Source: Sulfurimonas autotrophica DSM 16294 (GTDB lineage: Bacteria > Campylobacterota > Campylobacteria > Campylobacterales > Sulfurimonadaceae). Taken from it: a DNA stretch of 64,000 nucleotides. The notes below the pieces were generated by a model. The model had not been told where the DNA came from. It saw only the letters and a program-made list of their open reading frames with translations, and made no database searches. The DNA lies in assembly GCF_000147355.1 (NCBI RefSeq), contig NC_014506.1:806001-870000 (forward strand). Direction: 5' to 3'. The translations under genes and the position numbers were made by a program. Positions within the stretch are counted from its first letter, which is position 1. Every line of letters starts with the position of its first letter. This document shows, piece after piece, positions 33,290 through 47,296 of the stretch.

Positions 33290-34537
33290 CTATCGTCTAC
33301 CTTGCACTGCATTACCCATATCCCACATTGGTAAGAAAATACCAAGCGCAAGTAATAGAACCATTGATGCTATCATAAGTAGCATAATAGGTTCTATAGC
33401 TTCACTTAAGCCATCTATAATTGCATCAAATCGCATTTTATAGTATTCAGCCACTTTTTTGATCATAGTATCAAGTGTACCACTGTCTTCACCTGCACGA
33501 ATCATTTGAATAATCATATTTTCGAAAAGACCTGTTTCTTCAAGACCCTTATTGAGTGTACCGCCTTTTTCTACAGTGCTTATTACTGATTGAAGTTTCC
33601 TTTTAAGAGGTAGATTGTCTACCATTGAAGTAGCAGTATCCAGGGCTTCGGCTATAGGAATGCCGGCACGAATAAGTTCAGAAAAGACAAGTGTAAATCT
33701 ACTTAAAGTCGCAAACTTTATAATGTTTTTTATTAAATATACTTTGAGCAAAAATTTATGCCAACCATATCTTAAATTTTCATAGTTATTGATTAAGTAT
33801 TTAAAAACAAAAAACACAATAGCAATAATGGCTAAAACATATGGACCAAAATTGTTGAAAATATATTCAAGTTTTAATAAAATAAGTGTTGGTAAAGGCA
33901 GTTGTGCATGGAGCTCTTCAAAAATTGATTTAAACTGAGGAACTACGTAAGAAATTAAAACGGTGAATGCAATAGCCATCGCAATCATAACATTTCTAGG
34001 ATATGCCATTGCTTTTTTAAATTTAACAACATTGGCTCTTATTTCTTCAAGCATATTTGCTAAAGAGTATAAAGCTTCATCCAAATTACCGGTTTTTTCT
34101 CCAAGTTCAACCATTGCAATAGTTAAATTTCCAAGTTCATAGCGAAAGTTTTGCATTGCTGAGGAAATCGAGTGCCCGGCATTAATATCTTCTGCAATTT
34201 TTGAAAAGACAAATTTTAGTGCTTCATCTGTTGTCGCACTTGCAATTTCACTGAGTGAATCATGTATAGAAATACCTGCATTCGTCATAACGGCTAATTG
34301 TCGAATCGCTGCAATAAGTGCATCCGGCTTGATTTTTCTCTTTTTTATATTTGATAAAAAACTTGTTTTAAATCTTTTAAATTGTGCTTCAAGAGGTTCT
34401 TGGGATTCTGTGACTTTGATGATAATGCCGGGAAATTTTAATTTAGCGTAACTATTTGCCTCTTTTTTGTTTTCAGCATAGAGTCCAATCTCTTCTTTTT
34501 TCCCTTTTGTTAAAACAGTTGCTACAAAATATTTCAT
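33290..34537 (-). CDS. Inner-membrane platform protein, GspF/PilC/MshG type
   Basis: A 415-residue protein of the type II secretion/type IV pilus F family. Two related repeats are seen (about 75-200 and 280-400), each with LAVMTNAGISIHDSLSEIA- or FSELIRAGIPIAEALDTA-type helices, and three membrane helices near 180, 235 and 385. It anchors the assembly ATPase in the membrane. The start overlaps the ATPase gene by four bases. It is the last gene of the cluster, corresponding to MshG or CtsF. Confidence 0.9.
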   Translation of the reverse strand: MKYFVATVLTKGKKEEIGLYAENKKEANSYAKLKFPGIIIKVTESQEPLEAQFKRFKTSFLSNIKKRKIKPDALIAAIRQLAVMTNAGISIHDSLSEIASATTDEALKFVFSKIAEDINAGHSISSAMQNFRYELGNLTIAMVELGEKTGNLDEALYSLANMLEEIRANVVKFKKAMAYPRNVMIAMAIAFTVLISYVVPQFKSIFEELHAQLPLPTLILLKLEYIFNNFGPYVLAIIAIVFFVFKYLINNYENLRYGWHKFLLKVYLIKNIIKFATLSRFTLVFSELIRAGIPIAEALDTATSMVDNLPLKRKLQSVISTVEKGGTLNKGLEETGLFENMIIQMIRAGEDSGTLDTMIKKVAEYYKMRFDAIIDGLSEAIEPIMLLMIASMVLLLALGIFLPMWDMGNAVQGRR

Positions 34538-36270
34538 CCTTTTGCCACCTTTAATACTTCTTCTATACTGGTTATGCCATCAATTGCTTTTTGGATACCA
34601 TTTTGAAAGAGTCCTATAAACCCTTCTCCTTTAGCTTGTTCAAGCATCTGTTCTTTGGAAGCACCTTTAGCAATTAAAGAAGAGAGTTCTTCTGAAATAT
34701 TAAGTACTTCACATATCATTTCCCTTCCCATATAACCTGTATCTGCACACTCTTTACAACCTTTTCCTTTGTAAAAAATTGTACCTTCTGGTACAACATC
34801 ATCTATTTCTTCTAAAACGGATGCAGAGAGTGTGTCTTCTGCTTTACAATACGTACATATTTTTCTAACGAGTCTTTGTGCCTGAATAGCTACAAGAGCA
34901 CCGCTGATCAGGTAATGCTCGATACCCATATCTGCCATACGTGGTATTGCACTAATGGCATCGTTAGTATGGAGTGTTGAAATGACCATGTGACCTGTTA
35001 ATGCTGCTTTAATCGCAATTTCAAGTGTTTCCTGGTCACGAATTTCACCAATCATAATCTTATCAGGATCTTGTCTTAGAATTGACCTTAGTGCATCAGC
35101 AAAACTAAGACCGACTTTCGCATTGACCTGGACTTGCTGAATGAGATTCATTCTATACTCAACAGGGTCTTCAACAGTAATTATTTTATCTTCGACATTT
35201 CTGAGTTCATTTAACGCACCATACAATGTAGTAGTTTTACCACTTCCTGTAGGCCCGGTAACCAAAATGATCCCATATGGTGCTTTGAGACCTTTGAGCA
35301 GTTTTTGATAACTAACAGAATCCATGCCTGCATCTTCAAGTCTCACAAGTGCTTTTTGTTTATCTAAAACACGCATAACAATTGATTCACCGTAAAGTAT
35401 TGGCAGTGTTGATATCCGAAAGTCATATTCTCTGGCTCCAACCATGGTAGAAAATCGGCCGTCTTGTGGTTTTCTTTTTTCAGCAATATCTAAATTTGCA
35501 AGAAGTTTTAGCCTGGAAGCCAGAGGTGGATAAATATCTTTTTCAAAAATAAACATTTCAGTTAATTTTCCATCTACACGCCCTCGAACCATGCAGTTCT
35601 TTTCAGTTGGTTCAATATGGACATCACTTGATCTGGAGTTAATACATGTCTTTAAAACAACATCTATAAGAAGTAAAATTGAAGATGCCTCTTGTTGCTC
35701 TTCTATAGTACTGATAGAGTTTAACTCATCGCGTATTTTTTTTACCAAATCTTTAATACTGTCTTTGAGACTAATTTTATACAAAGAAGACAAAATTTGT
35801 TTTTTTGTAGCTAAAGCGATTTTAAGAATTTTTCTTGGAAATAGTCTTTGAATGGCCTCTTGAGCATCTATATCCAATGGATCGCTAAAAGCAACAGTGA
35901 CACTCATATCATCTTGAGATATTGGTATTGCATTGTGCTTTTCGAGTTGATTAAGAGGGACTTTTTCTATAAGATTATAATCCATGTCAATAGAATCAAG
36001 ATCTAAAAAGAGAAGGTCAAGCTCTTGTGCCAGTCTTTCAAGTACTGCTTTTTCTTCTATGTAATCATAATTATCAATGATAGAAAGGTCATAAACACCT
36101 TCTCTTATTTGATGAACAATAAACCTGACAAGTCGTTCCATAGTCATAAAGCCAGAGAGAGTAATATCTCGAAGGATTAGGTTTTCACTAATACCTTTTG
36201 ATAAAAGCCTGTCTACTTGCCCCTTCATTATTGAACCGTTAGCAAGTAAGTCAGTTGTTATTCTATCCAC
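34534..36270 (-). CDS. Assembly ATPase, GspE/PilB/MshE type
   Basis: Hexameric ATPase powering the secretion or pilus machine. The protein (about 578 residues) has an N-terminal MshEN-like domain, then Walker A GPTGSGKTTTLYGAL, the Asp box around TVEDPVEYRM, Walker B ILRQDPDKIMIGEIRD, and a zinc tetracysteine (CTYC and CKEC). TAGGAG with a five-base spacer supports the GTG at 36268-36270; a TTG at 36285 overlaps the preceding gene and has no ribosome site. It corresponds to MshE or CtsE. Confidence 0.92.
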   Translation of the reverse strand: MDRITTDLLANGSIMKGQVDRLLSKGISENLILRDITLSGFMTMERLVRFIVHQIREGVYDLSIIDNYDYIEEKAVLERLAQELDLLFLDLDSIDMDYNLIEKVPLNQLEKHNAIPISQDDMSVTVAFSDPLDIDAQEAIQRLFPRKILKIALATKKQILSSLYKISLKDSIKDLVKKIRDELNSISTIEEQQEASSILLLIDVVLKTCINSRSSDVHIEPTEKNCMVRGRVDGKLTEMFIFEKDIYPPLASRLKLLANLDIAEKRKPQDGRFSTMVGAREYDFRISTLPILYGESIVMRVLDKQKALVRLEDAGMDSVSYQKLLKGLKAPYGIILVTGPTGSGKTTTLYGALNELRNVEDKIITVEDPVEYRMNLIQQVQVNAKVGLSFADALRSILRQDPDKIMIGEIRDQETLEIAIKAALTGHMVISTLHTNDAISAIPRMADMGIEHYLISGALVAIQAQRLVRKICTYCKAEDTLSASVLEEIDDVVPEGTIFYKGKGCKECADTGYMGREMICEVLNISEELSSLIAKGASKEQMLEQAKGEGFIGLFQNGIQKAIDGITSIEEVLKVAKG

Positions 36271-36278
36271 AATAACTC

Positions 36279-36824
36279 CTACCAATATACGTGACGTTTT
36301 AAAATTATTGTATCATAATATTCTTCAATAACCATTTTACTGACTCTATCACCTTTTGAAATATATAGTTTGTAACTTAGCTTCATATCAGTTGGATCTT
36401 CAAACAGGTAAAAAGCTCTTGGTTCATGTTTACCGAGTTTTATATACAAATCAAAGACTCTTGATAAAACATAATCTGTTGAAGGAAGAATATACTTAGA
36501 CAAATCATATCCGTCAATTAGAGCATGGTATAAAAGCTTTTTTTGCATTAAAATAACTGAAAAATAAGCTGAATTTGCGCGAGCTTCTTTTGAAAATTTC
36601 AATGTGGCTATTGGTATAGCCAATCTATCTATATAGTCGGAATTTAAACATCCAAATGCATATAAACTGACAAATTCTTCATCTTGTTTATATTTTTGAA
36701 AATTATTAAAACCTATACTACAAACTTTTTCATATTTTTTATTTTGATATAAAGTAAATAAATTCTGCTTTATATCATATGCAAAAAGATTATAAGTGAG
36801 TATAAAAAGTATGATTAATTTCAT
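36279..36824 (-). CDS. Secreted protein of unknown function in the secretion cluster
   Basis: A 181-residue product with a clear signal peptide (MKLIILFILTYNLFAYD). The mature part is helical and TPR-like (LFTLYQNKKYEKVCSIGFNN), with two cysteines that could form a disulfide. No known domain is recognised. It sits between the MshN-like and ATPase genes, with four-base overlap upstream, a position not filled in the standard MSHA order, so it may be a lineage-specific periplasmic component. Confidence 0.78.
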   Translation of the reverse strand: MKLIILFILTYNLFAYDIKQNLFTLYQNKKYEKVCSIGFNNFQKYKQDEEFVSLYAFGCLNSDYIDRLAIPIATLKFSKEARANSAYFSVILMQKKLLYHALIDGYDLSKYILPSTDYVLSRVFDLYIKLGKHEPRAFYLFEDPTDMKLSYKLYISKGDRVSKMVIEEYYDTIILKRHVYW

Positions 36825-37648
36825 TTAAATTTTCCTGATTTGATTTCATTTAAAAGTATTTCAGCATTACTTGAATGCGAAACTTTTATATACTCTTGAA
36901 GTGTATGAATTGCTTTATCTTTTTTATGAAGTTTTACGAGTGATCTTGCAAAAACAATCCAGCTGGCTTCTATATTGGAATTAATCTGATTGGTAATTAG
37001 CGCATAATTATATGACTGTTCATAGTTACCAAGTTCATAATATTTTTTTGCAACAAACAGACTAAGAGCAGGGTTGTTGTTCTTCTTAAAGCGTTTAATA
37101 ATTTCAAAAATATCGTTTTGAGTCTCTTTTCTTTCAATTGTAATGGCAACTTTTGGTTCTTGTTTAACAGTAGTTTCAGGTGTAATATCCTGAATGACTT
37201 CCTGCACTACTTTTGGCTTTACTACTCTTCTCTTTTTTTTCACAATTCGCTGTTTTTTTGGGGTTTGTCGCTTTGAATACTGTGGTTGTGATGCTTGATG
37301 TTGAATATTTTTCATAAAATTCATTGATGGTTGCAATTTCTGAGTTTGTACAGGTGTTTGAATACTTCTTTGCGTTTTTTTGACTGGAATCGGTTTTGTA
37401 ATTAGAACTTTTTTTTTCACTGCAACTGGTTTTGCCTTGGTCTTTTTCTTTTCTTGAACAACCGCTACTTGAACATTCTTTTTTTGTAGAATTTGTTTTT
37501 TTGGAGGAATACTACTATTTATATTTGTGTAAAAGCTATATACAATGGGAATAATTACTAATAGACTTATTCCTATTATTATATAAGGCAAAAATGATTT
37601 TATTTTATATATTTTCCAACGTTTTTCTAAATCATGAATATTAAGCAT
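36821..37648 (-). CDS. Membrane-anchored TPR protein, MshN-like
   Basis: A 275-residue bitopic protein: short cytoplasmic N-terminus, one helix (about residues 19-41), a long Lys/Pro/Gln/Val-rich linker (about 45-165) able to span the periplasm, and a TPR-like C-terminal domain (about 185-270). The layout fits MshN and periplasm-spanning scaffold proteins. It overlaps the ATPase gene upstream by eight bases and the next gene by four. Confidence 0.8.
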   Translation of the reverse strand: MLNIHDLEKRWKIYKIKSFLPYIIIGISLLVIIPIVYSFYTNINSSIPPKKQILQKKNVQVAVVQEKKKTKAKPVAVKKKVLITKPIPVKKTQRSIQTPVQTQKLQPSMNFMKNIQHQASQPQYSKRQTPKKQRIVKKKRRVVKPKVVQEVIQDITPETTVKQEPKVAITIERKETQNDIFEIIKRFKKNNNPALSLFVAKKYYELGNYEQSYNYALITNQINSNIEASWIVFARSLVKLHKKDKAIHTLQEYIKVSHSSNAEILLNEIKSGKFK

Positions 37649-38450
37649 TAATGAGCCCTGTATGTATTGCAGCCATTTCTACAAATTTATTTGGAATATG
37701 GGTTGTGTTAATTGGATATATACGGCTGTTTTGCTCATAGGTATCATAAATATCAAAGAGTGTATAAAGCAATTTATTTGTGTCCCTATAGTTTCCATTT
37801 GTAAGTTTGTAAATTTTATTTACTGTTTTTGTATTAAACATATTTGCAGTATCAAAACAGTTTGCCTTCATAAGTTTTTTTTGTATATAAATTTTCAGTT
37901 CTGTAGTTGAGGCATTTTCAAGCTCAAATGTTTCCCAAATTCTGGTTTGAAAGTGCTCTTTTGCAATGAGATCTTCTTTTTCTGTTTTATGTAATGTTAT
38001 AACAAATTTAATACTTCTGGTATCAGACAAAAGCCTTATTTTTTCCATCAATGTCTCAGAATAAAGCTGAGCTTCATCTAATAAAACAATCGGAATTTGC
38101 TCTATTTCTCTATCTTTTACAATTTTCATAAATTGGGTGAAATTTAACGTGTCATTATATTTTATATTAAATATATCTTGTGCAAGTGTTTTATAGAATT
38201 CATTTTCATCTAAAATAGGTGTTTGATAGAGGTAAATATTATTTTCTTGGCATAAATCATTATGGAGTTTTGTTAGAAATATACTTTTACCCGTTCCCGG
38301 TTTTCCAAACAGGAGTATCATTTTAAGAGGTTTCTCTATTGAGTCTTTTAAAGATTGGTATATAGTAGACACTCTGTTTAACTGTATATAATCTTTTGCA
38401 TTGACTGTATCTAAGAAAACATTTTTGGAATTTACAAAGATACTGTCCAT
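37641..38450 (-). CDS. ExeA/MshM-type AAA ATPase
   Basis: A 269-residue cytoplasmic AAA ATPase with Walker A LFGKPGTGKSIFL near residue 47, Walker B IPIVLLDEAQL near 118 and an arginine-containing sensor region. There is no peptidoglycan-binding tail, as in MshM rather than ExeA. Such proteins help insert the secretin through the cell wall; the Campylobacter competence counterpart is CtsP. It lies three bases after the secretin gene. Confidence 0.87.
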   Translation of the reverse strand: MDSIFVNSKNVFLDTVNAKDYIQLNRVSTIYQSLKDSIEKPLKMILLFGKPGTGKSIFLTKLHNDLCQENNIYLYQTPILDENEFYKTLAQDIFNIKYNDTLNFTQFMKIVKDREIEQIPIVLLDEAQLYSETLMEKIRLLSDTRSIKFVITLHKTEKEDLIAKEHFQTRIWETFELENASTTELKIYIQKKLMKANCFDTANMFNTKTVNKIYKLTNGNYRDTNKLLYTLFDIYDTYEQNSRIYPINTTHIPNKFVEMAAIHTGLINA

Positions 38451-38453
38451 ATG

Positions 38454-40082
38454 TTATTTACCTTCTTTCTCTTCATCATCTTTTTGATTTAATTTGACTT
38501 CTTTTTTTTCTTTTGAAGCTGATTCAAGTGTAAGTAAATCATCACTAAGACCTTCGTATCCTAAATCACTGAGTGAAATTGAATCTTTTTCTTTGTGGAT
38601 AATATGCGGTTCTATAATAATTACAAGTTCTTCAACAGTTTTTACTATTTCTTCATGTTTAAATAAATAACCAAGGACAGGAATACTGCCTAAAATCGGC
38701 ACCTGATTCGTATCACTTGTGTTTTTGGAGTTAATAAGACCACCTAATATAATTCTATTACCATCTTTAACTGTTACAACAGAAGAGAGTTGACGGCGGT
38801 TTAAATCCGGAGGCATATCTCTTCCGCTATTTGACGTTTGTGAAATGTCTGTTGTTGTTTCTGACAATGACGGATTTATTTTAAGTGTAATTGTTTTATC
38901 ATCCGAAATCTCTGGAGTAATTGTTAAAAGGACACCGGCAAATACAGAATTAACTGTATCATTTTGTGTTGTCGCAGCCACTCCGCCACCTGTTCCTTGT
39001 TGATTTGTGGAAGAAATAATTTTATAAAAATACTCAGTTCCAGCGGTAATAAGTGCTGGTTGATTATTTAAAGTGAGTACTTTTGGGTTTGATATAGAGT
39101 TTACATCTCCTTGAGTTTTTAAGAACTTGATAACTTCTGTCAGTTGGCCACTAGCGCTCATACTTAATAGCTGTGATGCACCTGCACCTACAGCAGCAGT
39201 ATCAGTTATGATACCATCTGCAGGTATTGTTGTACCTATATTGTTATAGTTGGCTGTACTAGCAGAAAGCTTGATATTTTGAAGTGCATAAAGCTGCTTC
39301 CAATCAATACCTGTAGATTTTCCTTTACTCATTGTTACAGACAAAAGCTGTACATCTATAAGAACTTGTAGTTTTACCTTATCTTGCAGTTTTTTCAAAT
39401 AGCTTTCAAAACGTTTTAATTGCTTGTCAGTTGCAGTAACAGTAATGAGCCCTGCATTTTTATTAATAATTGGAGGAGTTGCTTTATATATGTCATGTGG
39501 ACGGTTGAGAACACTTTGAAATTCTGTGTCAAGTTGTTCCCAAAATTTCACTTCATCACTACTTACAATTTGTATGCCTGTTTCAGATGTAGAATTGCCT
39601 CCTGTTCCAGATTCGCTTCCACCTTGTGTGGAAGTTGAAGCAGTTGCACCACCTGCTGTACTTCCTTGCTGGGAGTTAGATGAAGAACTGAGGGTAACAT
39701 CAGTACTGCCACTACTTTTTCTTTGTGAAAGAATATAGTCTATATTAAATACCTTCGTTTTTAAATAAGAGATTTTCAGTAAATTGTTCTCAAGTGTATA
39801 AGAAAGGTTGTGTTCTGTTAAGATAATATTTAGTACTTCATCAATCGTTAAATTTTTTAAGTTTGTTTTATTCAATTTTGTATTTAAGAACTTTTTGGCA
39901 TTTGGATCAGTAACAATGATACTAAAACCACATTCATCACTAAGTTGTTCTATAAAATCAACTATTTTAGTGTTTTTTGCAGAACTGATACTAAAAAGTT
40001 CATAAGAACAGTCTGCAAAACTACTTGTTGAAAGCATAACGGTAATCATAGCCGTGTAAACCGATGTTTTTATAAATTTCAT
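38454..40082 (-). CDS. Outer-membrane secretin, MshL/CtsD type
   Basis: Forms the outer-membrane ring. The 542-residue precursor has a signal peptide (about 1-23), an STN/secretin N-domain (about 40-110), a Ser/Gly/Thr/Gln-rich linker (about 122-170), an N-type ring domain (about 195-240) and the secretin domain (about 250-515) with VPILGSIPVLGYLFKHE and EELVIIIEPHII. The linker is unusually low in complexity and may vary between strains. It corresponds to MshL. Confidence 0.93.
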   Translation of the reverse strand: MKFIKTSVYTAMITVMLSTSSFADCSYELFSISSAKNTKIVDFIEQLSDECGFSIIVTDPNAKKFLNTKLNKTNLKNLTIDEVLNIILTEHNLSYTLENNLLKISYLKTKVFNIDYILSQRKSSGSTDVTLSSSSNSQQGSTAGGATASTSTQGGSESGTGGNSTSETGIQIVSSDEVKFWEQLDTEFQSVLNRPHDIYKATPPIINKNAGLITVTATDKQLKRFESYLKKLQDKVKLQVLIDVQLLSVTMSKGKSTGIDWKQLYALQNIKLSASTANYNNIGTTIPADGIITDTAAVGAGASQLLSMSASGQLTEVIKFLKTQGDVNSISNPKVLTLNNQPALITAGTEYFYKIISSTNQQGTGGGVAATTQNDTVNSVFAGVLLTITPEISDDKTITLKINPSLSETTTDISQTSNSGRDMPPDLNRRQLSSVVTVKDGNRIILGGLINSKNTSDTNQVPILGSIPVLGYLFKHEEIVKTVEELVIIIEPHIIHKEKDSISLSDLGYEGLSDDLLTLESASKEKKEVKLNQKDDEEKEGK

Positions 40083-40091
40083 TTGAGATCC

Positions 40092-40538
40092 CTACTTATT
40101 GTTGATTTTAATTTTTTTACTTCTGCTCACTGTAGAAAGAAGAAGTTTTTTGTTTTTTCGAATTAATAGAACAGATTTTCTGTCAACCTTAACCAATTTA
40201 TAGCCATGTACATAACTGCCTTGTTTGTACCATTTTCCATTAATCATTGCTGATTTATTTAAGATGGCCTCTAGTCTGAAGTGTAAAGTTCTGCGTTTGA
40301 CGACTTTTTTGTATCTTGAATAAGCAGCAGGAACGATCCCTTTCTTTGCTCCTGATAGTTTTGAATCATCATTTTTATGCAAGAAAATAAAAGGGTCTTT
40401 GATTTTAGAAATCTCTTTGTCAGAAATTCCAACTCTTGCCGGCTTAATTGCCTCAACCTGCTCATCAACCCATGCTAATTCATTAGAAAACAGTTGTGTT
40501 ACTATGAGGAGTGTTAATAGTAAGTATAAATTTTTCAT
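40092..40538 (-). CDS. MshK-like periplasmic protein
   Basis: A 148-residue product with a signal peptide (about 1-18) and a compact C-terminal beta domain containing INGKWYKQGSYVHGYKLVKV, the pattern of MshK/PilP-like proteins that link the inner-membrane platform and secretin. The ATG at 40536-40538 overlaps the preceding stop (TAATG), favouring it over a longer in-frame start. It lies nine bases before the secretin gene. Confidence 0.8.
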   Translation of the reverse strand: MKNLYLLLTLLIVTQLFSNELAWVDEQVEAIKPARVGISDKEISKIKDPFIFLHKNDDSKLSGAKKGIVPAAYSRYKKVVKRRTLHFRLEAILNKSAMINGKWYKQGSYVHGYKLVKVDRKSVLLIRKNKKLLLSTVSRSKKIKINNK

Positions 40539-41170
40539 TAGTATGTAATCCCCCATACAGATATGTTTAAATCAGAATCTAGAATTTGATTTGCTTTAAT
40601 ATCAAAGTTGTGTATATCAACCACTAGCTCACTTTGTTCTAGTGAATTAATGAATTTTAAGGTATTTTTATAATCTGCTACTGATTTAATAGTGATATCC
40701 AATATATGACCAAATGAACTGTCAGCTTGAGCATACCTATTAGTTAAAGTAATTAATTTGACATCATATTTTTGAGCATTTTTGGTTATAGAATCTAAAT
40801 ATTCACCCCACGCACGTTCATCATATATTAAAGATGAAATTGTTTCAATTTTACTTTTTATATATGCATTTGTATCTTTTAATGCAATAATTTCATTATT
40901 TACTTTGTTTATTTCTCTTTCAAGTTGTACAATCTTCGACTCTGGATTTCCTTGTAAAAATACTTTATCTTCATTAATTTTAGTTTGAAGGTTATTTACA
41001 TTTGCCCTAGTACGTTCAAACTTTTCAAAAGAACTGTCCCAAAAAAGGAGATATGCAAAGGCAAAAATAACACCCACAACCATTGCATACGTCATATATG
41101 TATCTTTTTGACTTTTATCTTTAAAAGCAGCATCTATTCTATGGAGATAATCTTCAATATTTATTTTCAT
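40538..41170 (-). CDS. MshJ/PilO-like inner-membrane platform protein
   Basis: A 210-residue bitopic protein with a membrane helix (about residues 29-46), a coiled coil (about 50-105) and a ferredoxin-like periplasmic domain typical of PilO/GspM/MshJ. It overlaps the preceding gene by four bases and the MshK-like gene by one. The C. jejuni competence protein CtsR is a possible counterpart. Confidence 0.8.
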   Translation of the reverse strand: MKINIEDYLHRIDAAFKDKSQKDTYMTYAMVVGVIFAFAYLLFWDSSFEKFERTRANVNNLQTKINEDKVFLQGNPESKIVQLEREINKVNNEIIALKDTNAYIKSKIETISSLIYDERAWGEYLDSITKNAQKYDVKLITLTNRYAQADSSFGHILDITIKSVADYKNTLKFINSLEQSELVVDIHNFDIKANQILDSDLNISVWGITY

Positions 41171-42702
41171 AATATGCTCACCTTTAATTCACTAAAATAT
41201 TTATTTGTTTTTACATCAAAAGTAATCTCTTCCAATGTGAACTTGTATTTTCCTTCATGAATTTTAGTTACATACTCAACCAGTTGAGTAATTTTTCTGT
41301 CTTTGTCTGAAACTAAATAAAGTGTTAATATTTTTCCTTTACTTCCTTCACTATATTTGGCCGCTTCAATGTTAACACCATGTTTGTTTAAATCTTTGGT
41401 GAACATCGCTAAGAGCTTTGCTTTCATAGGATAATCTACTTTTACCTCATGAATTTTAACAAGTGTATTTTTCTTGTCTGTATATTCTTTTTTCTCTTTA
41501 GCAAGCAATGTAAACGCTTTGTCTTTATCTGCCCGTCTATTTTTAATTGTAGCTTCTCTTGTTATTTTAATATTATGAAGCTCTTTATATTTTTGTTGGA
41601 GTAAATCCTCTTGAAGTGCCTGTGCATAAGTTAAAATCCAGTATGTGATCGGATAAGCAAATGCAAGAGCAAATGAAGCCAATATTAAAATTATAAGTTT
41701 ACCACTTGCTCTTTTAATAAATTTTGGAGGACGTTTGTACTCGGTGAAATTACATTCGTACCTTTCATCTTTTGGTAATGTTGTATAAAGATGCATAAGT
41801 GCATGTAATTGATCTACATAGCTATTTTCTGTTTCAAAACCGTAGTCAAATTCAAATTCACTTGATTTTATATTTAACTCGACTTCCAACATTTCATAGA
41901 GTTTTGTGACAGTCGGAAGTTGCGTTCCTATATAAACATGCTCAAATTTTTCAATTTCGAAGGCTCTTTTTGCATATGTAAGAATATCATTAATATTCGC
42001 AAAAAATTCTTTATAAAGACGAATAAAGAATTCTTTATACTCGCTCGTAGTTTCTTTTAAATTTTCTTTAGAGAAAAAATGTATGAATTCTTCATATTCA
42101 ATTCTTTCACCATGTAATTCGCAAAAACGTTCGTGCATTTCCAAAAGAGAATATTTTAAAGATTTTGTATATATGAACTCTTTATTCCCGTAAATAGTTA
42201 AAAAAGCATCATTTTCTTGAATATATATGAAACAGTGAACACCATTACTATCAATTAGTTCTTTTGTATAAAGAGATTTTATTAAAAGAGGAGAAGGGAT
42301 TATTACATCAATATATTTTACTTTTTCAACTACTTTTAAAAAAGTATTTGTTATATCTAAAGGGTCTACAATAAAAACATGAAAATATCTATTCTCCTCA
42401 TCAAGTGTATTAAATGTTTCTATGTATTGAATTTTATACTCAACTGCCTGGTCGAGTGCTAATTCGTCATATGCTTTGTTGTTGATAGCGTCAAATAAGT
42501 CTTCTTCAGGAATATTTTTACTGATTTCAATCTGAGCATTTATAAACTCTTTTGTACTGATATATGAAATTACAAATTGATCTTTTGAAAATTCCGCTGT
42601 TGTTGTTTCAGTGATGAAACTTGATATTCCATTAAAGTATGTCTCTTTGTATGGATTAACAGACAATACACTTGAAAAAGAGTGTTGTGTTGATGTATTC
42701 AT
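41167..42702 (-). CDS. MshI/PilM-PilN-like platform protein
   Basis: A 511-residue protein: the first 320 residues form an actin-like cytoplasmic domain as in PilM/GspL, then one membrane helix (about 334-355), a coiled coil and a small periplasmic PilN-like domain. This fused layout is that of MshI or GspL. It opens the secretion cluster and lies 12 bases downstream of the Csd4-like gene on the same strand. Confidence 0.8.
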   Translation of the reverse strand: MNTSTQHSFSSVLSVNPYKETYFNGISSFITETTTAEFSKDQFVISYISTKEFINAQIEISKNIPEEDLFDAINNKAYDELALDQAVEYKIQYIETFNTLDEENRYFHVFIVDPLDITNTFLKVVEKVKYIDVIIPSPLLIKSLYTKELIDSNGVHCFIYIQENDAFLTIYGNKEFIYTKSLKYSLLEMHERFCELHGERIEYEEFIHFFSKENLKETTSEYKEFFIRLYKEFFANINDILTYAKRAFEIEKFEHVYIGTQLPTVTKLYEMLEVELNIKSSEFEFDYGFETENSYVDQLHALMHLYTTLPKDERYECNFTEYKRPPKFIKRASGKLIILILASFALAFAYPITYWILTYAQALQEDLLQQKYKELHNIKITREATIKNRRADKDKAFTLLAKEKKEYTDKKNTLVKIHEVKVDYPMKAKLLAMFTKDLNKHGVNIEAAKYSEGSKGKILTLYLVSDKDRKITQLVEYVTKIHEGKYKFTLEEITFDVKTNKYFSELKVSIL

Positions 42703-42713
42703 TAACTATAATC

Positions 42714-44006
42714 CTATTTAAAATGAACTAGTAACATGGAACAAAATTCATCATTGTCGTAAATTTCTATTCTGTAAGTTTTGTTAGTATTATCAATCGA
42801 ATATTTTTTATTCAAATTATTTAAAGATATATCAATCAGACTCTCGTCAGATGTGCCTTTTTTATAATAACCAATAACATTAACACGGTAGTTCTTAGCT
42901 TTGATAACTTTAAAATCGTCATTTACATAAAATTCTGAAGCTTTCGGTAGAGAAACTTCCTTGCCATCTACAACAAACTTAAATTTATTTTGACAATTTT
43001 TCGACATTTTAAAGTACTGAGGTCTCAGTGTGGTCACTAATTTGTTGCCTATGTACACTAAGTATCTACCTCTTTTCTTTTTTACTTCGCCCAATGGATT
43101 GGAAAAATAAAACTCGTTACTTTTTGATTCTATCGGAATATAGCTTAAAGATTTTTTTATATTATTTAAATTTAACAAAAAATTGTGATTTATTACTAAA
43201 GTGCCATAATTTTTTATTATTTTTGAAATCTCTTCTATATTTAGGTTAAAGTCCCTTGTATAGTCGATATCCATGATTTTCATATATTCTTCAATGGCGA
43301 CTAATTGATAAAATACTTTTTGAGCCAAAGAAGATAAGTTCTTACTTGTTTCTATAGCAAATGCAGGTTTTGAATGTTTTACTGCAAAATAAGTAAGGGA
43401 TTGCTGCATTTGTATATCCTCATTTTTAGTATTTGTATTTTTAACATTAAAACTATGGTGTTTTTTGAGCAGTTTTTTATTTATATTGTCTTTTACAGTT
43501 AATGCTATGCCGTTGAGATCACCAAAAGGCTGTGCTCGCAAGAGCTTACACTGGTCTATAACACAGGTTTGTCCCCATGCATCGGGATTATAAATATTTC
43601 CTTCACTCTTTTTGCGGTAAAATCCATGGCCGTCATGTAAATTTAAAATTAGTGAAATATTGGGTAAAAGAATAATTTTTTTGATTTCTTCAACAATTTT
43701 TTTATCTTTATCATTGTTTTTGATGTGGTTGAATTTTCTATTCATATCACCATGTATACCACGTTTGTTTGCAATAATACTCGCTTTATTTAAGGTTGGA
43801 ATTATCCATAAATTTTTTGATTTGATTGTATAATGTGTTGCTAAAATTTCAGGTGCAAAATAGCCGCCGGGTTCATTGCCGTGAATACCGCCTATAACTA
43901 ACAGAGTAGTGTTTGAGTCACTATTTTCTTTTTTTATTAAATTGATATTTGCACTCAGGACAGATGAGAGAATAAGCGCTATACATATTTTGAAAACAGG
44001 AGACAT
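42714..44006 (-). CDS. Csd4/Pgp1-like peptidoglycan DL-carboxypeptidase
   Basis: Zinc peptidase of the M14 fold that trims peptidoglycan tripeptides to dipeptides and so affects helical or curved cell shape in Helicobacter and Campylobacter. The 430-residue precursor has a signal peptide (about 1-18), the zinc motif GGIHGNEPGG near residue 39, LNLHDGHGFY near residue 122 and the catalytic-glutamate block KPAFAIETSK near 223. Two small beta domains follow. H. pylori Csd4 has a glutamine at one zinc ligand; here the histidine is kept. It directly follows the Csd6-like gene. Confidence 0.85.
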   Translation of the reverse strand: MSPVFKICIALILSSVLSANINLIKKENSDSNTTLLVIGGIHGNEPGGYFAPEILATHYTIKSKNLWIIPTLNKASIIANKRGIHGDMNRKFNHIKNNDKDKKIVEEIKKIILLPNISLILNLHDGHGFYRKKSEGNIYNPDAWGQTCVIDQCKLLRAQPFGDLNGIALTVKDNINKKLLKKHHSFNVKNTNTKNEDIQMQQSLTYFAVKHSKPAFAIETSKNLSSLAQKVFYQLVAIEEYMKIMDIDYTRDFNLNIEEISKIIKNYGTLVINHNFLLNLNNIKKSLSYIPIESKSNEFYFSNPLGEVKKKRGRYLVYIGNKLVTTLRPQYFKMSKNCQNKFKFVVDGKEVSLPKASEFYVNDDFKVIKAKNYRVNVIGYYKKGTSDESLIDISLNNLNKKYSIDNTNKTYRIEIYDNDEFCSMLLVHFK

Positions 44007-44999
44007 CTATTTCTCTGTTATTATATTAAATTTATTATCTTGCAGCTTAACAATTAGAACTTTTCGTCCATTAAAAGAAAAACTATTGGATTTATACTCT
44101 TCATCAAAAGTTATTCTATACACACTTTTCATATTTGGATAGGTGACAATATTGATATTGCGAAACAGTATAGTTTTACTTTCATACTTGGCAAAAATTC
44201 TTGTCTTATATTTTTTAAATCTTTTAAAATCCATTCCATCATATCTTTTAAATTCCGGTGCATAAAAATTAAGATAATTCTCTGTTTCATTATAGAGCCA
44301 AGCATAGCGCCATGCATAAAGTGTAGAGAGAAGCTGTGAGAGTGTTTTCTTAGAAGGAGTAGTACTGTCATTCGCATTTTCTTTAATAATAAGAACTGTT
44401 TTTTTAATATCTATATTCCTATTCATACACTCAATGCTTTTATTGTTAATAGCAATGCAGCCTTTTGTAAACGCATCTCTTTCTTGATTTGTAGGTAAAC
44501 CATGAATCCAGATACCTTGTCCTGTTTTACCTTCGTATCTATCATATAAATTTGGATAAGAAGTAACAAAAGCCATCGGACCGTAAAAAGAATCAACTTT
44601 AGATATTTTTTTTATGATATCATAAACACCAATAGGCGTTTTAAGGTCTCCTTCCTTTCTTTTGTCCCCTTTAAGTTTTCCGGTAAATGCGCTGTATTCT
44701 TTTCGGAGCTTGTATGTGTTGTTGGAATCTTTTGAATAGATTAAAAGCTCTGATTTTGACTTGTCACATAATAAGATATTTGTATATGATTCTATATAGC
44801 CAAATTTTGTGTCTTTATTTTTGAGATATTCTTTCCAATACGTTGTCTCTGTAAGACTTTTATCTAGTGCTTTTTCGATATTTTTAATACCATGGAGTCT
44901 ATAATTTGTTAATATTTTATTGTCTGAAGCAAAAATAGAAGTTGAAAGAAAAAGAGTCAATAAGATATTGACAGTTCTAGTGTAGAACTTATTTTCCAT
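44007..44999 (-). CDS. Csd6/Pgp2-like L,D-carboxypeptidase (YkuD fold)
   Basis: A YkuD-domain enzyme that removes the terminal D-Ala of peptidoglycan tetrapeptides, producing the tripeptide substrate for the Csd4-like enzyme. The 330-residue product has a signal peptide, the catalytic pattern WIHGLPTNQERDAFTKGCIAI (His and Cys near residues 166 and 181), and an NTF2-like C-terminal domain (about 215-330) as in Csd6. An upstream ATG at 45005 is possible, but AGGA spacing favours 44999. It overlaps era by 11 bases. Confidence 0.85.
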   Translation of the reverse strand: MENKFYTRTVNILLTLFLSTSIFASDNKILTNYRLHGIKNIEKALDKSLTETTYWKEYLKNKDTKFGYIESYTNILLCDKSKSELLIYSKDSNNTYKLRKEYSAFTGKLKGDKRKEGDLKTPIGVYDIIKKISKVDSFYGPMAFVTSYPNLYDRYEGKTGQGIWIHGLPTNQERDAFTKGCIAINNKSIECMNRNIDIKKTVLIIKENANDSTTPSKKTLSQLLSTLYAWRYAWLYNETENYLNFYAPEFKRYDGMDFKRFKKYKTRIFAKYESKTILFRNINIVTYPNMKSVYRITFDEEYKSNSFSFNGRKVLIVKLQDNKFNIITEK

Positions 45000-45873
45000 T
45001 GTCATATCCTATCTCTTTTAAGAAGTTTTTATCTTTTGTCCAGCCTTTTTTTACTGTTACTTGGAGATTAAGATAAGCTTTTTTTCCACTAAGTCTTTCA
45101 ATTTTTTCACGAGCAGATTTTCCTATTCTTTTTACTGCTTCTCCGCCTTTACCAATAATAATACCTTTTTGAGACTCTTTTTCTATAATAATAGTAGCAT
45201 AAATTCTGTCAATGCCGGCTTCTTCTTCAATTGAATCAATAATGACATCAGATTCGTAAGGCACTTCATCGCTGATATTTTCAAAAATAGCTTCACGGAC
45301 AAATCCTGCATAGATATCACGAACAAGTTCACTTGTTAAATCCTCGGGATCATAAAGATAAGGTGAGTCCGGCAAATTTTTTGCAATAATATCCAGTAAA
45401 TCTTTATGTCCGACTTTACGAGGTATAGCAACAGGAATAAGTGCTTCAAAATGATCAGCATATTTATTATATGAACCAATAGCCTTAAAAAGTTTTTCTT
45501 GAGAAACCTGATCAATTTTACTCAGTACTATTATATGCTTCACTCGTCCGTTATTGATTTGCAGAAATTTTTCATAATGCTCTGTGGAGTCAGTAACAGG
45601 AGCCAGATAAACGATGAGATCACAATCACCCATCGCTTTGAGTGCTTCATCAAGCATAAATTGATTCAACATTTTTTCTTTTTCATGCAGACCGGGTGTG
45701 TCAACAAAAATAATTTGTGCATTCTCATGCATAACAATTGCATTTGAGCGTTTTCTTGTAGCATTTGCCTTTTGGCTTACCATTGCAATTTTTTCACCTA
45801 AGAGTGAGTTCATAAGGGTACTTTTACCCGCATTTGGACGTCCGATTAAGGAAACGAAACCAGCTTTAGTCAT
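44989..45873 (-). CDS. era: GTPase Era
   Basis: Ribosome-assembly GTPase binding 16S rRNA 3' end. The 294-residue product has G1 GRPNAGKST, G3 DTPG, G4 SKID and a C-terminal KH domain with GIIIGKGGEAVKRIG. Length and domain order are standard. It lies nine bases after hslU and overlaps the Csd6-like gene. Confidence 0.95.
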   Translation of the reverse strand: MTKAGFVSLIGRPNAGKSTLMNSLLGEKIAMVSQKANATRKRSNAIVMHENAQIIFVDTPGLHEKEKMLNQFMLDEALKAMGDCDLIVYLAPVTDSTEHYEKFLQINNGRVKHIIVLSKIDQVSQEKLFKAIGSYNKYADHFEALIPVAIPRKVGHKDLLDIIAKNLPDSPYLYDPEDLTSELVRDIYAGFVREAIFENISDEVPYESDVIIDSIEEEAGIDRIYATIIIEKESQKGIIIGKGGEAVKRIGKSAREKIERLSGKKAYLNLQVTVKKGWTKDKNFLKEIGYDNGK

Positions 45874-45882
45874 TTAATTGTC

Positions 45883-47211
45883 CTATAATATATATCTTGA
45901 TAAATCTTCATCTTCTACGGCGTCATCCAGTTTTTCATGTACTAGTTTTGCTGTAATAATGAACTCTTTTCCTTTGTACTCAGCAGCATTAAAGCTAATG
46001 TCTTCAAGGATAAGCTCTAATACTGTGTGCAATCGTCTTGCTCCAATATCTTCAGCCGTTTCATTAGCTCGATGTGCAAGTTTTGCAATAGCTCTGACAG
46101 CCTCATCCTCAAATATTAATTCCATCCCTTCAACAGCCAAAAGGGCTTGATACTGTTTAAGCAGAGAACTTTGTGTTTGTGTTAAAATTTTATAAAGTGT
46201 ATCTTCTGTTAATGCTTCTAATTCAACACGTAAAGGAAATCTTCCTTGCAGCTCGGGAATTAAATCGCTCGGTTTACTGACATGAAAAGCACCGGCTGCA
46301 ATGAAAAGGATATGGTCGGTGTTAATAGTTCCATATTTTGTTGAAACACTGCTTCCTTCTACAATCGGGAGTAAGTCTCTTTGTACGCCTTCTTTTGAAG
46401 GGTCATTTCTACCCTGGCTTTTTTCACTAAGTGCTATTTTATCTATTTCATCAAGGAAAATAATGCCTCCGTTTTCAGCTCGTCTGAGTGCTTCGGCATT
46501 GACTCTTGTCATATCAAGAAGCTTTGTAGCCGCTTCTTGTCGAAGAAGTATTTTTGCGTCTTTTACAGTCACTTCTTTTTTGTTGTCTTCTTTGTTAATT
46601 GTTGCAAATACTTTGGAAAAACTTTCCTGGACTTTTGCCATTTCCGGCGGCAGGTTTGTATCGTTAAATTCTACATTGAGTTTTTCAATTTCAAGTTCTA
46701 TTACTTTGTCGTCCATTTCACCTGATTCTATGCGCTTTTCCATCGCTTCAAGCAGTCTTTGATAATCGTCTTTTTTACTTTCACTCGCACCTGCAGGAAG
46801 AGGGGGAAGCAGTTTTTCTGTAATTTTATTAATGATGTAGTTTTCTATTTTTTCTTTGTTGGCTTTTTCTTGTTCAGCTTTTACTATAGAGATAGAATTC
46901 ACAACTAGATCACGAATCATAGACTCTACATCACGACCGACAAAACCGACTTCTGTGTATTTACTTGCTTCCACTTTAATAAAAGGCACCTTCATCATTT
47001 TTGCCAAACGTCTAGAAATTTCAGTTTTTCCGACCCCTGTTGAACCTATCATTAAAATATTTTTGGGAGTAATTTCATTTTTAAGTTCATCATCAAGCTG
47101 CATACGTCTGTAACGTGTGCGCAGAGCAAGTGCGATAGTTTTTTTCGCATCTTTTTGAGCAATCACATAGTTGTCTAAATACTCTACAATTTCTTTAGGT
47201 GTTAAATTCAT
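45883..47211 (-). CDS. hslU: HslU ATPase subunit of the HslUV protease
   Basis: AAA+ unfoldase feeding HslV. The product (442 residues) begins MNLTPKEIVEYLDNYVI, has Walker A GSTGVGKTEISRR, Walker B IIFLDEIDKIA, an intermediate domain and the C-terminal DLSRYIL tail that docks into HslV. AAGGAGA eight bases upstream fixes the start at 47211, just after the 27-codon mini-ORF. Confidence 0.95.
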   Translation of the reverse strand: MNLTPKEIVEYLDNYVIAQKDAKKTIALALRTRYRRMQLDDELKNEITPKNILMIGSTGVGKTEISRRLAKMMKVPFIKVEASKYTEVGFVGRDVESMIRDLVVNSISIVKAEQEKANKEKIENYIINKITEKLLPPLPAGASESKKDDYQRLLEAMEKRIESGEMDDKVIELEIEKLNVEFNDTNLPPEMAKVQESFSKVFATINKEDNKKEVTVKDAKILLRQEAATKLLDMTRVNAEALRRAENGGIIFLDEIDKIALSEKSQGRNDPSKEGVQRDLLPIVEGSSVSTKYGTINTDHILFIAAGAFHVSKPSDLIPELQGRFPLRVELEALTEDTLYKILTQTQSSLLKQYQALLAVEGMELIFEDEAVRAIAKLAHRANETAEDIGARRLHTVLELILEDISFNAAEYKGKEFIITAKLVHEKLDDAVEDEDLSRYIL

Positions 47212-47212
47212 A

Positions 47213-47296
47213 CTATTTATCTCCTTGAATCGGAAGTAATTCCGCTTCAATTCCTTTCACTAAAGCTACGCCTGAAGGCGAGAAAAAATATTTCAT
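47213..47296 (-). CDS. 27-codon mini-ORF between hslV and hslU
   Basis: Starts at ATG three bases after the hslV stop and ends with TAG two bases before the hslU start. The peptide contains YFFSPSGVA near its N-terminus and ends GDK. It is a paralogue of the mini-ORF before hslV: same length (84 bases), same place relative to neighbours, shared YFSPxGVA...GI pattern. The SPSGV codons form a hairpin CGCC-TTCA-GGCG. The reading frame also contains the hslU ribosome site, so it may be a leader peptide coupling translation of hslU. Confidence 0.55.
   Translation of the reverse strand: MKYFFSPSGVALVKGIEAELLPIQGDK

Follow-up and report, generated by a model that had tools for sequence, protein, structure and literature searches.

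Why would a filament-building machine be encoded without its filament? The first-pass annotation of a 64-kb stretch of the Sulfurimonas autotrophica DSM 16294 chromosome (hereafter the window, positions 806001-870000 of a single 2,153,198-bp contig) had described an MSHA-order secretion machine without pilins, related to the Cts DNA-uptake system of Campylobacter jejuni and carrying an extra 181-residue protein outside the standard order. Judging from gene content and orthology, we consider it likely that the locus encodes the core of a retractable DNA-uptake pilus of the MSHA class, a full-length relative of Cts with its pilins encoded elsewhere.

A machine of the MSHA class

Nine intact ORFs lie in tandem on the minus strand, from 42702 down to 33290, in the order I-J-K-L-M-N-U-E-F, neighbours being either at most 9 bases apart or slightly overlapping. 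They and their conserved neighbours are listed below.

44989..47250, minus: era and hslU, conserved neighbours that mark the locus in the order
44007..45005, minus: adjacent YkuD/Cds6_C cell-shape enzyme, Csd6/Pgp2-like (PF24125 125 bits, PF03734 57 bits)
42714..44006, minus: adjacent M99 carboxypeptidase of the Csd4/Pgp1 family, outside the machine proper (PF17033 219 bits; 11 bases upstream of I)
41167..42702, minus: I, MshI-like by predicted fold, 511 aa; PilM-type actin-like domain, membrane helix, coiled coil and GspL-like periplasmic domain
40538..41170, minus: J, PilO/GspM-like inner-membrane protein, 210 aa; weak T2SSM/PilO match, operon place conserved
40092..40556, minus: K, MshK-like, CtsR homologue, 154 aa; weak T2SSB match, HMM match to the C. 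jejuni K at the ctsR position
38454..40082, minus: L, MshL-type secretin, CtsD orthologue, 542 aa (TIGR02519)
37641..38450, minus: M, AAA ATPase, MshM/GspA-like, CtsP homologue, 269 aa (PF13401 4e-11)
36821..37648, minus: N, membrane-anchored TPR protein, MshN-like, CtsX homologue, 275 aa (PF12895 9e-7)
36279..36824, minus: U, predicted secreted protein, 181 aa; TPR-like helices and a C-terminal four-strand domain
34534..36285, minus: E, extension ATPase, CtsE/MshE orthologue, 583 aa (PF00437 429 bits, PF05157 (MshEN) 59 bits)
33290..34537, minus: F (MshG position), platform protein, CtsF/MshG homologue, 415 aa (T2SSF, PF00482 174 bits)

The claimed MSHA gene order was confirmed by profile matches and by the fold of I. 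The secretin scored 264.5 bits against the NCBIfam MshL model (TIGR02519, cut-off 250.2), and J matched PF04612 (2e-4) and PF04350 (3e-3), both under the curated cut-off. Neither I nor U had a Pfam match. The AlphaFold model of I (pLDDT 87) had PilM as its best Foldseek match (E 1.6e-13); the PilM fold (Z 23.5 over 289 residues) leads into a membrane helix and a long coiled coil, after which comes a small domain resembling the periplasmic part of GspL. All four mandatory genes of the published MSH pilus model, mshE, mshG, mshL and mshM, are represented at the locus (T2SSE plus MshEN, T2SSF, MshL and AAA ATPase), and the model expects no prepilin peptidase in the locus while permitting the major pilin mshA as a loner gene (PMC6668835). 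A profile search of the 64-kb window found neither pilins nor prepilin peptidases, as the first-pass annotation had stated. MSH loci all have an unlinked prepilin peptidase, and such systems were previously known in Epsilonproteobacteria (PMC6668835). That the locus encodes a type IV pilus machine of the MSHA class, orthologous to Cts, is well supported. The machine shares with the Vibrio MSHA pilus, a type IVa pilus, the I-J-K-L-M-N-E-G order, the MshL family and the unlinked prepilin peptidase, but differs in having U between N and E, pilins outside the main locus and an extension ATPase that has lost its c-di-GMP motif.

The term secretion machine implies a T2SS-like protein secretion system without a pilus of its own. 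The families are indeed common with GspE, GspF and GspD, but the proteins missed the equivalog cut-offs for GspE (513.5 bits, cut-off 630), GspF (272, cut-off 424) and GspD (173, cut-off 351), and a T2SS-like locus with its own pilin set exists elsewhere in the genome (L021). Furthermore, two PilT-family ATPases accompany the machine even where it is the sole one (G001, G071 and G016), and we regard the secretion reading as very improbable. None of the nine locus proteins reached a VirB-type cut-off (Helicobacter ComB, type IV secretion-like uptake).

Of 56 long named loci surrounding the secretin, 44 have era beside the machine, as does the window; the exceptions are the C. jejuni group and L130. 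The M99 carboxypeptidase and YkuD/Cds6_C genes (42714-45005), both for cell-shape peptidoglycan enzymes, stand head-to-tail upstream of I; the M99 gene of C. jejuni adjoins tsaD and the ctsG-position pilin (L192). Scans for promoters (71 vs 67.6) and terminators (8 vs 5.9) stayed at the level of shuffled sequence.

Pilins, peptidase and retraction motors elsewhere on the chromosome

As a property of the whole system, the description "without pilins" did not survive a genome-wide search: pilins, PilD and PilT are encoded elsewhere on the chromosome. Fourteen pilin-motif genes passed the Pfam cut-off in the genome, none of them in the window. A lone prepilin peptidase (PilD) is located at 1262439-1263257, another one stands beside a Tad-like locus, and two PilT-family retraction ATPases scored above the family cut-off. 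The genome also has three further type IV filament loci, namely the T2SS-like one, L023 (a second cluster in MSHA order, with six pilins) and L020 (a third pilus). Outside these three, we found an unlinked pair of pilins (126 and 152 aa), a lone pilin of 235 aa, and a minor-pilin trio (208, 307 and 166 aa) behind a 1,397-aa protein. The pair is directly before priA, in a block about 7 kb from comEC. The 1,397-aa protein (1787703-1791896; L028 1704-5897) has no Pfam match; its position before the minor pilins is conserved in related genomes, and it is missing in C. jejuni.

A genome of the same genus (G001; two contigs, 100% complete) is a natural test of which pilins serve the window machine. 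Its only extension ATPase is of the window type, it has two PilT, and it has just five pilin-motif matches, i.e., the priA pair, a 199- plus 299-aa pair of the trio type, and a lone pilin that adjoins a ComEA-like gene. On coordinates, pilins are likewise near comEC in G001, G071, G010, G016, G014, G118, G132, G148, G135 and G196; gene neighbourhoods were taken from targeted genome stretches. The priA-linked pair is the best candidate for the major pilin of the machine, and pilins may also be shared among the window machine and the three other filament loci of the genome.

The lack of nearby pilins might also be expected of a relic or partial locus that has lost the ability to build a filament. 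Against this, every ORF is intact, the operon has held its syntenic position across families, and G001 retains exactly this machine along with its five pilin-motif genes; we give the relic reading next to no weight.

The Cts system and the choice between DNA uptake and attachment

The proposed kinship with the C. jejuni Cts system held up in gene order, in the tree of L and E, and in pilin homologues. K, L, M, N, E and F correspond, in the same order, to CtsR, CtsD, CtsP, CtsX, CtsE and CtsF in the named C. jejuni loci (L097 and L098). L is 34% identical to its C. jejuni counterpart, M is 27% identical to a 202-aa protein (E 8e-19), N matches a 195-aa protein (E 5e-7), and F is 26% identical (E 6e-51). 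The K-L-M-N-E-F lengths in L097 (103-470-202-195-519-393 aa) are near the published ones for ctsR (105 aa), ctsD (472 aa) and ctsP (202 aa) (PMC8308473), and the operon name ctsRDPXEF (PMC10893306) fits as well, which supports Cts orthology.

Trees were inferred with FastTree, with SH-like supports. In the L+E tree, which omits the fast-evolving F and adds L096, the C. jejuni group was nested within the Campylobacter part of the window-type clade (support 1.0). In the L+E+F tree, C. jejuni was instead sister of the clade and not nested (joint clade 0.95). We prefer the nested placement, and the conflict between the two trees stands. The second MSHA cluster of the genome fell outside the window-type clade in both trees.

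Once the N-terminal helix common to all pilins had been cut away, comparison of their C-terminal domains gave two families. One contains the 152-aa pilin of this genome, those of G001 (171 aa), G118 (140 aa) and G097 (140 aa), and the 145-aa C. jejuni pilin at the Cj0683 position; the 152- and 145-aa genes are both directly before priA. The other contains the 126-aa pilin, those of G001 (156 aa), G097 (186 aa) and G118 (184 aa), and the 171-aa C. jejuni pilin at the ctsG position, after what we take to be tsaD. The links of the S. autotrophica pilins to Cj0683 and CtsG are transitive, via intermediates, and in the same comparison pilins of the other three systems in the genome joined neither family. 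In C. jejuni, efficient DNA uptake depends on Cj0683, which also showed an interaction with CtsE in a yeast two-hybrid assay (PMC10046745). The minor trio is found where C. jejuni has ctsT, with a neighbourhood in common (a lipoprotein gene, and proC in G132) and the trio layout; this correspondence draws on gene order more than on sequence; C. jejuni CtsT (only 100 aa) had no significant match to the 208-aa pilin. The search for prepilins and ctsG- or ctsT-like genes that the first-pass annotation had proposed recovered homologues of CtsG and Cj0683, with a possible CtsT counterpart suggested by gene order. Across Campylobacter, the priA-linked pilin is immediately preceded by two conserved small ORFs of 76-81 and 78-80 aa (L181 6953-7435, L190 7318-7780 and L195 6390-6874).

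Cts has six of the nine genes in common order, together with pilin homologues that include the priA-linked one. In contrast to Cts, S. autotrophica has I, J and U, longer M and N, two PilT, the 1,397-aa protein and the lone 235-aa pilin, and its locus retains the era-hslU site that the C. jejuni operon has left. The C. jejuni genomes read contain neither I, J and U nor PilT. C. jejuni has a reduced form of the machine, so function is not simply transferable from Cts. A separate three-gene locus of M, N and U occurs in a family of the order, possibly Arcobacteraceae (L085 9268-11259 and L086 9142-11109); homologues of ctsP and ctsX were reported absent from Aliarcobacter butzleri by BLAST (PMC8308473).

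The extension ATPase differs from that of the adhesive Vibrio pilus. Vibrio MshE binds c-di-GMP via two 24-residue motifs, and a change of Gly11 abolishes binding (PMC5013675). The motif score of the window E was 6/9, no better than that of shuffled sequence, and the two glycines are replaced; by this motif test, as distinct from a binding test, its canonical c-di-GMP motif is lost. The other window-type ATPases checked, C. jejuni included, also have no motif, except for L096, the earliest branch. The second MSHA-order cluster (L023, 416000-435900) is complete, with four minor and two major pilins. It shares the I-J-K-L-M-N-E-G order with the window locus, and its E is 48% identical, but it has pilins of its own and intact versions of both c-di-GMP motifs (9/9 and 8/9 positions), lacks U and belongs to a separate clade.

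These results bear on whether the pilus serves attachment. An adhesive MSHA-like surface pilus for attachment to sulfur particles or surfaces, with DNA uptake secondary or left to another system, would agree with the MSHA gene order, the MshL score above cut-off, the retained PilT, and the minor pilins accompanied by the 1,397-aa protein, a possible tip adhesin. However, the window machine has lost the c-di-GMP motif through which the adhesive Vibrio pilus is controlled (PMC5013675) and the pilin-bearing second cluster has kept it, the candidate pilins are homologous to CtsG and Cj0683, and Cts, the only experimentally tested orthologue, acts in DNA uptake. Loss of the c-di-GMP site fits a machine that is not tied to the biofilm switch. 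We find a primarily adhesive role rather unlikely, although the 1,397-aa protein could be an adhesin, hinting at attachment as well.

Competence pili are themselves surface pili that retract, so the presence of pilins, which had been put forward as a sign of a surface pilus and against this reading, does not cleanly separate the two roles. Both comEC and ComEA are present in the genome; of 18 genomes that we examined, all had comEC and 17 had a ComEA-type domain, and their presence alone thus discriminates little. A literature search found no transformation data for Sulfurimonas autotrophica. Given Cts orthology and the links of the pilins to priA and comEC, DNA uptake is likely to be the main task of the machine.

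From gene content, we infer that the machine, pilins, PilD, PilT, ComEA and ComEC work together, with DNA as the cargo. I, J and K would form the inner-membrane alignment complex, and L would be the outer-membrane pore, probably assembled with the help of M (AAA), N (TPR) and U. Pilins from the priA/comEC pair, the minor trio with the 1,397-aa protein, and the lone pilin would be cut by the unlinked PilD and polymerised by E through platform F into a short fibre. The PilT motors would retract this fibre with bound DNA, which ComEA would hold and ComEC would thread inward as one strand.

Protein U

The Vibrio MSHA order presumably has no gene between N and E, and in that sense the 181-residue protein was correctly called extra. 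In this phylum the description fails. We found U in 74 of the 81 family genomes and in 102 of the 298 phylum genomes; in each of the 20 loci of the family that were checked it lies between N and E, and it has the same place in other families. Its wide occurrence and constant position make it part of the normal order here. Across Campylobacterales, U belongs to the standard order as an old, previously undescribed member that was lost independently several times. True absences, in which N directly adjoins E, occur in the C. jejuni group, the S. cavolei group, several vent lineages and gut lineages. The idea that loss of U follows loss of PilT was dropped, as G203 and G097 lack U although each has two PilT.

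Some genomes have a second, more distant copy of U, which is sometimes on its own. Stand-alone second copies lie away from pilus genes (L051 8987-9532, L053 9376-9948 and L054 8844-9371), and in L050 the second copy heads a second MSHA cluster.

The model of U (pLDDT 93) consists of TPR-like helices and a four-strand C-terminal end. Two cysteines, C35 and C59, are invariant in 30 sequences, which suggests a periplasmic disulfide. Searches of U against PDB sequences and Pfam gave chance-level matches only. A fold search on the whole model, strand domain included, returned generic TPR proteins (type III secretion chaperones, Z 9.4; CpoB/YbgF, Z 8.2); for helical repeats, such matches are no evidence of kinship, and this route was set aside. 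MshN has been described as a TadD homologue, and TadD is essential for secretin assembly in another system (PMC6668835). As N is of the TadD-like MshN type, U may add to the secretin-assembly step. U is probably a periplasmic helper for assembly or stability of the pore.

What is new here is U, the gene-by-gene match between Cts and MSHA, and the lost c-di-GMP site; an MSHA-class pilus itself is of a known kind. The Cts genes gain MSHA counterparts (K for CtsR, L for CtsD, M for CtsP, N for CtsX, E for CtsE and G for CtsF), the seemingly missing filament genes are located at other chromosomal sites, and Pfam has no family for the conserved component U. We tentatively suggest, as a possibility that we hold with less than even confidence, that Campylobacterales have an old DNA-uptake pilus made from a c-di-GMP-controlled MSHA pilus minus the switch, with U for the pore, of which Cts would be a stripped-down form without U, I, J and the retraction motors. 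C. jejuni, which takes up DNA without PilT, I, J and U, and its relatives, which retain all of these, offer a natural comparison. Furthermore, one genome has two sister MSHA machines that differ in the c-di-GMP switch, so that a free-living sulfur bacterium can be used to test directly whether attachment and DNA uptake are split between them.
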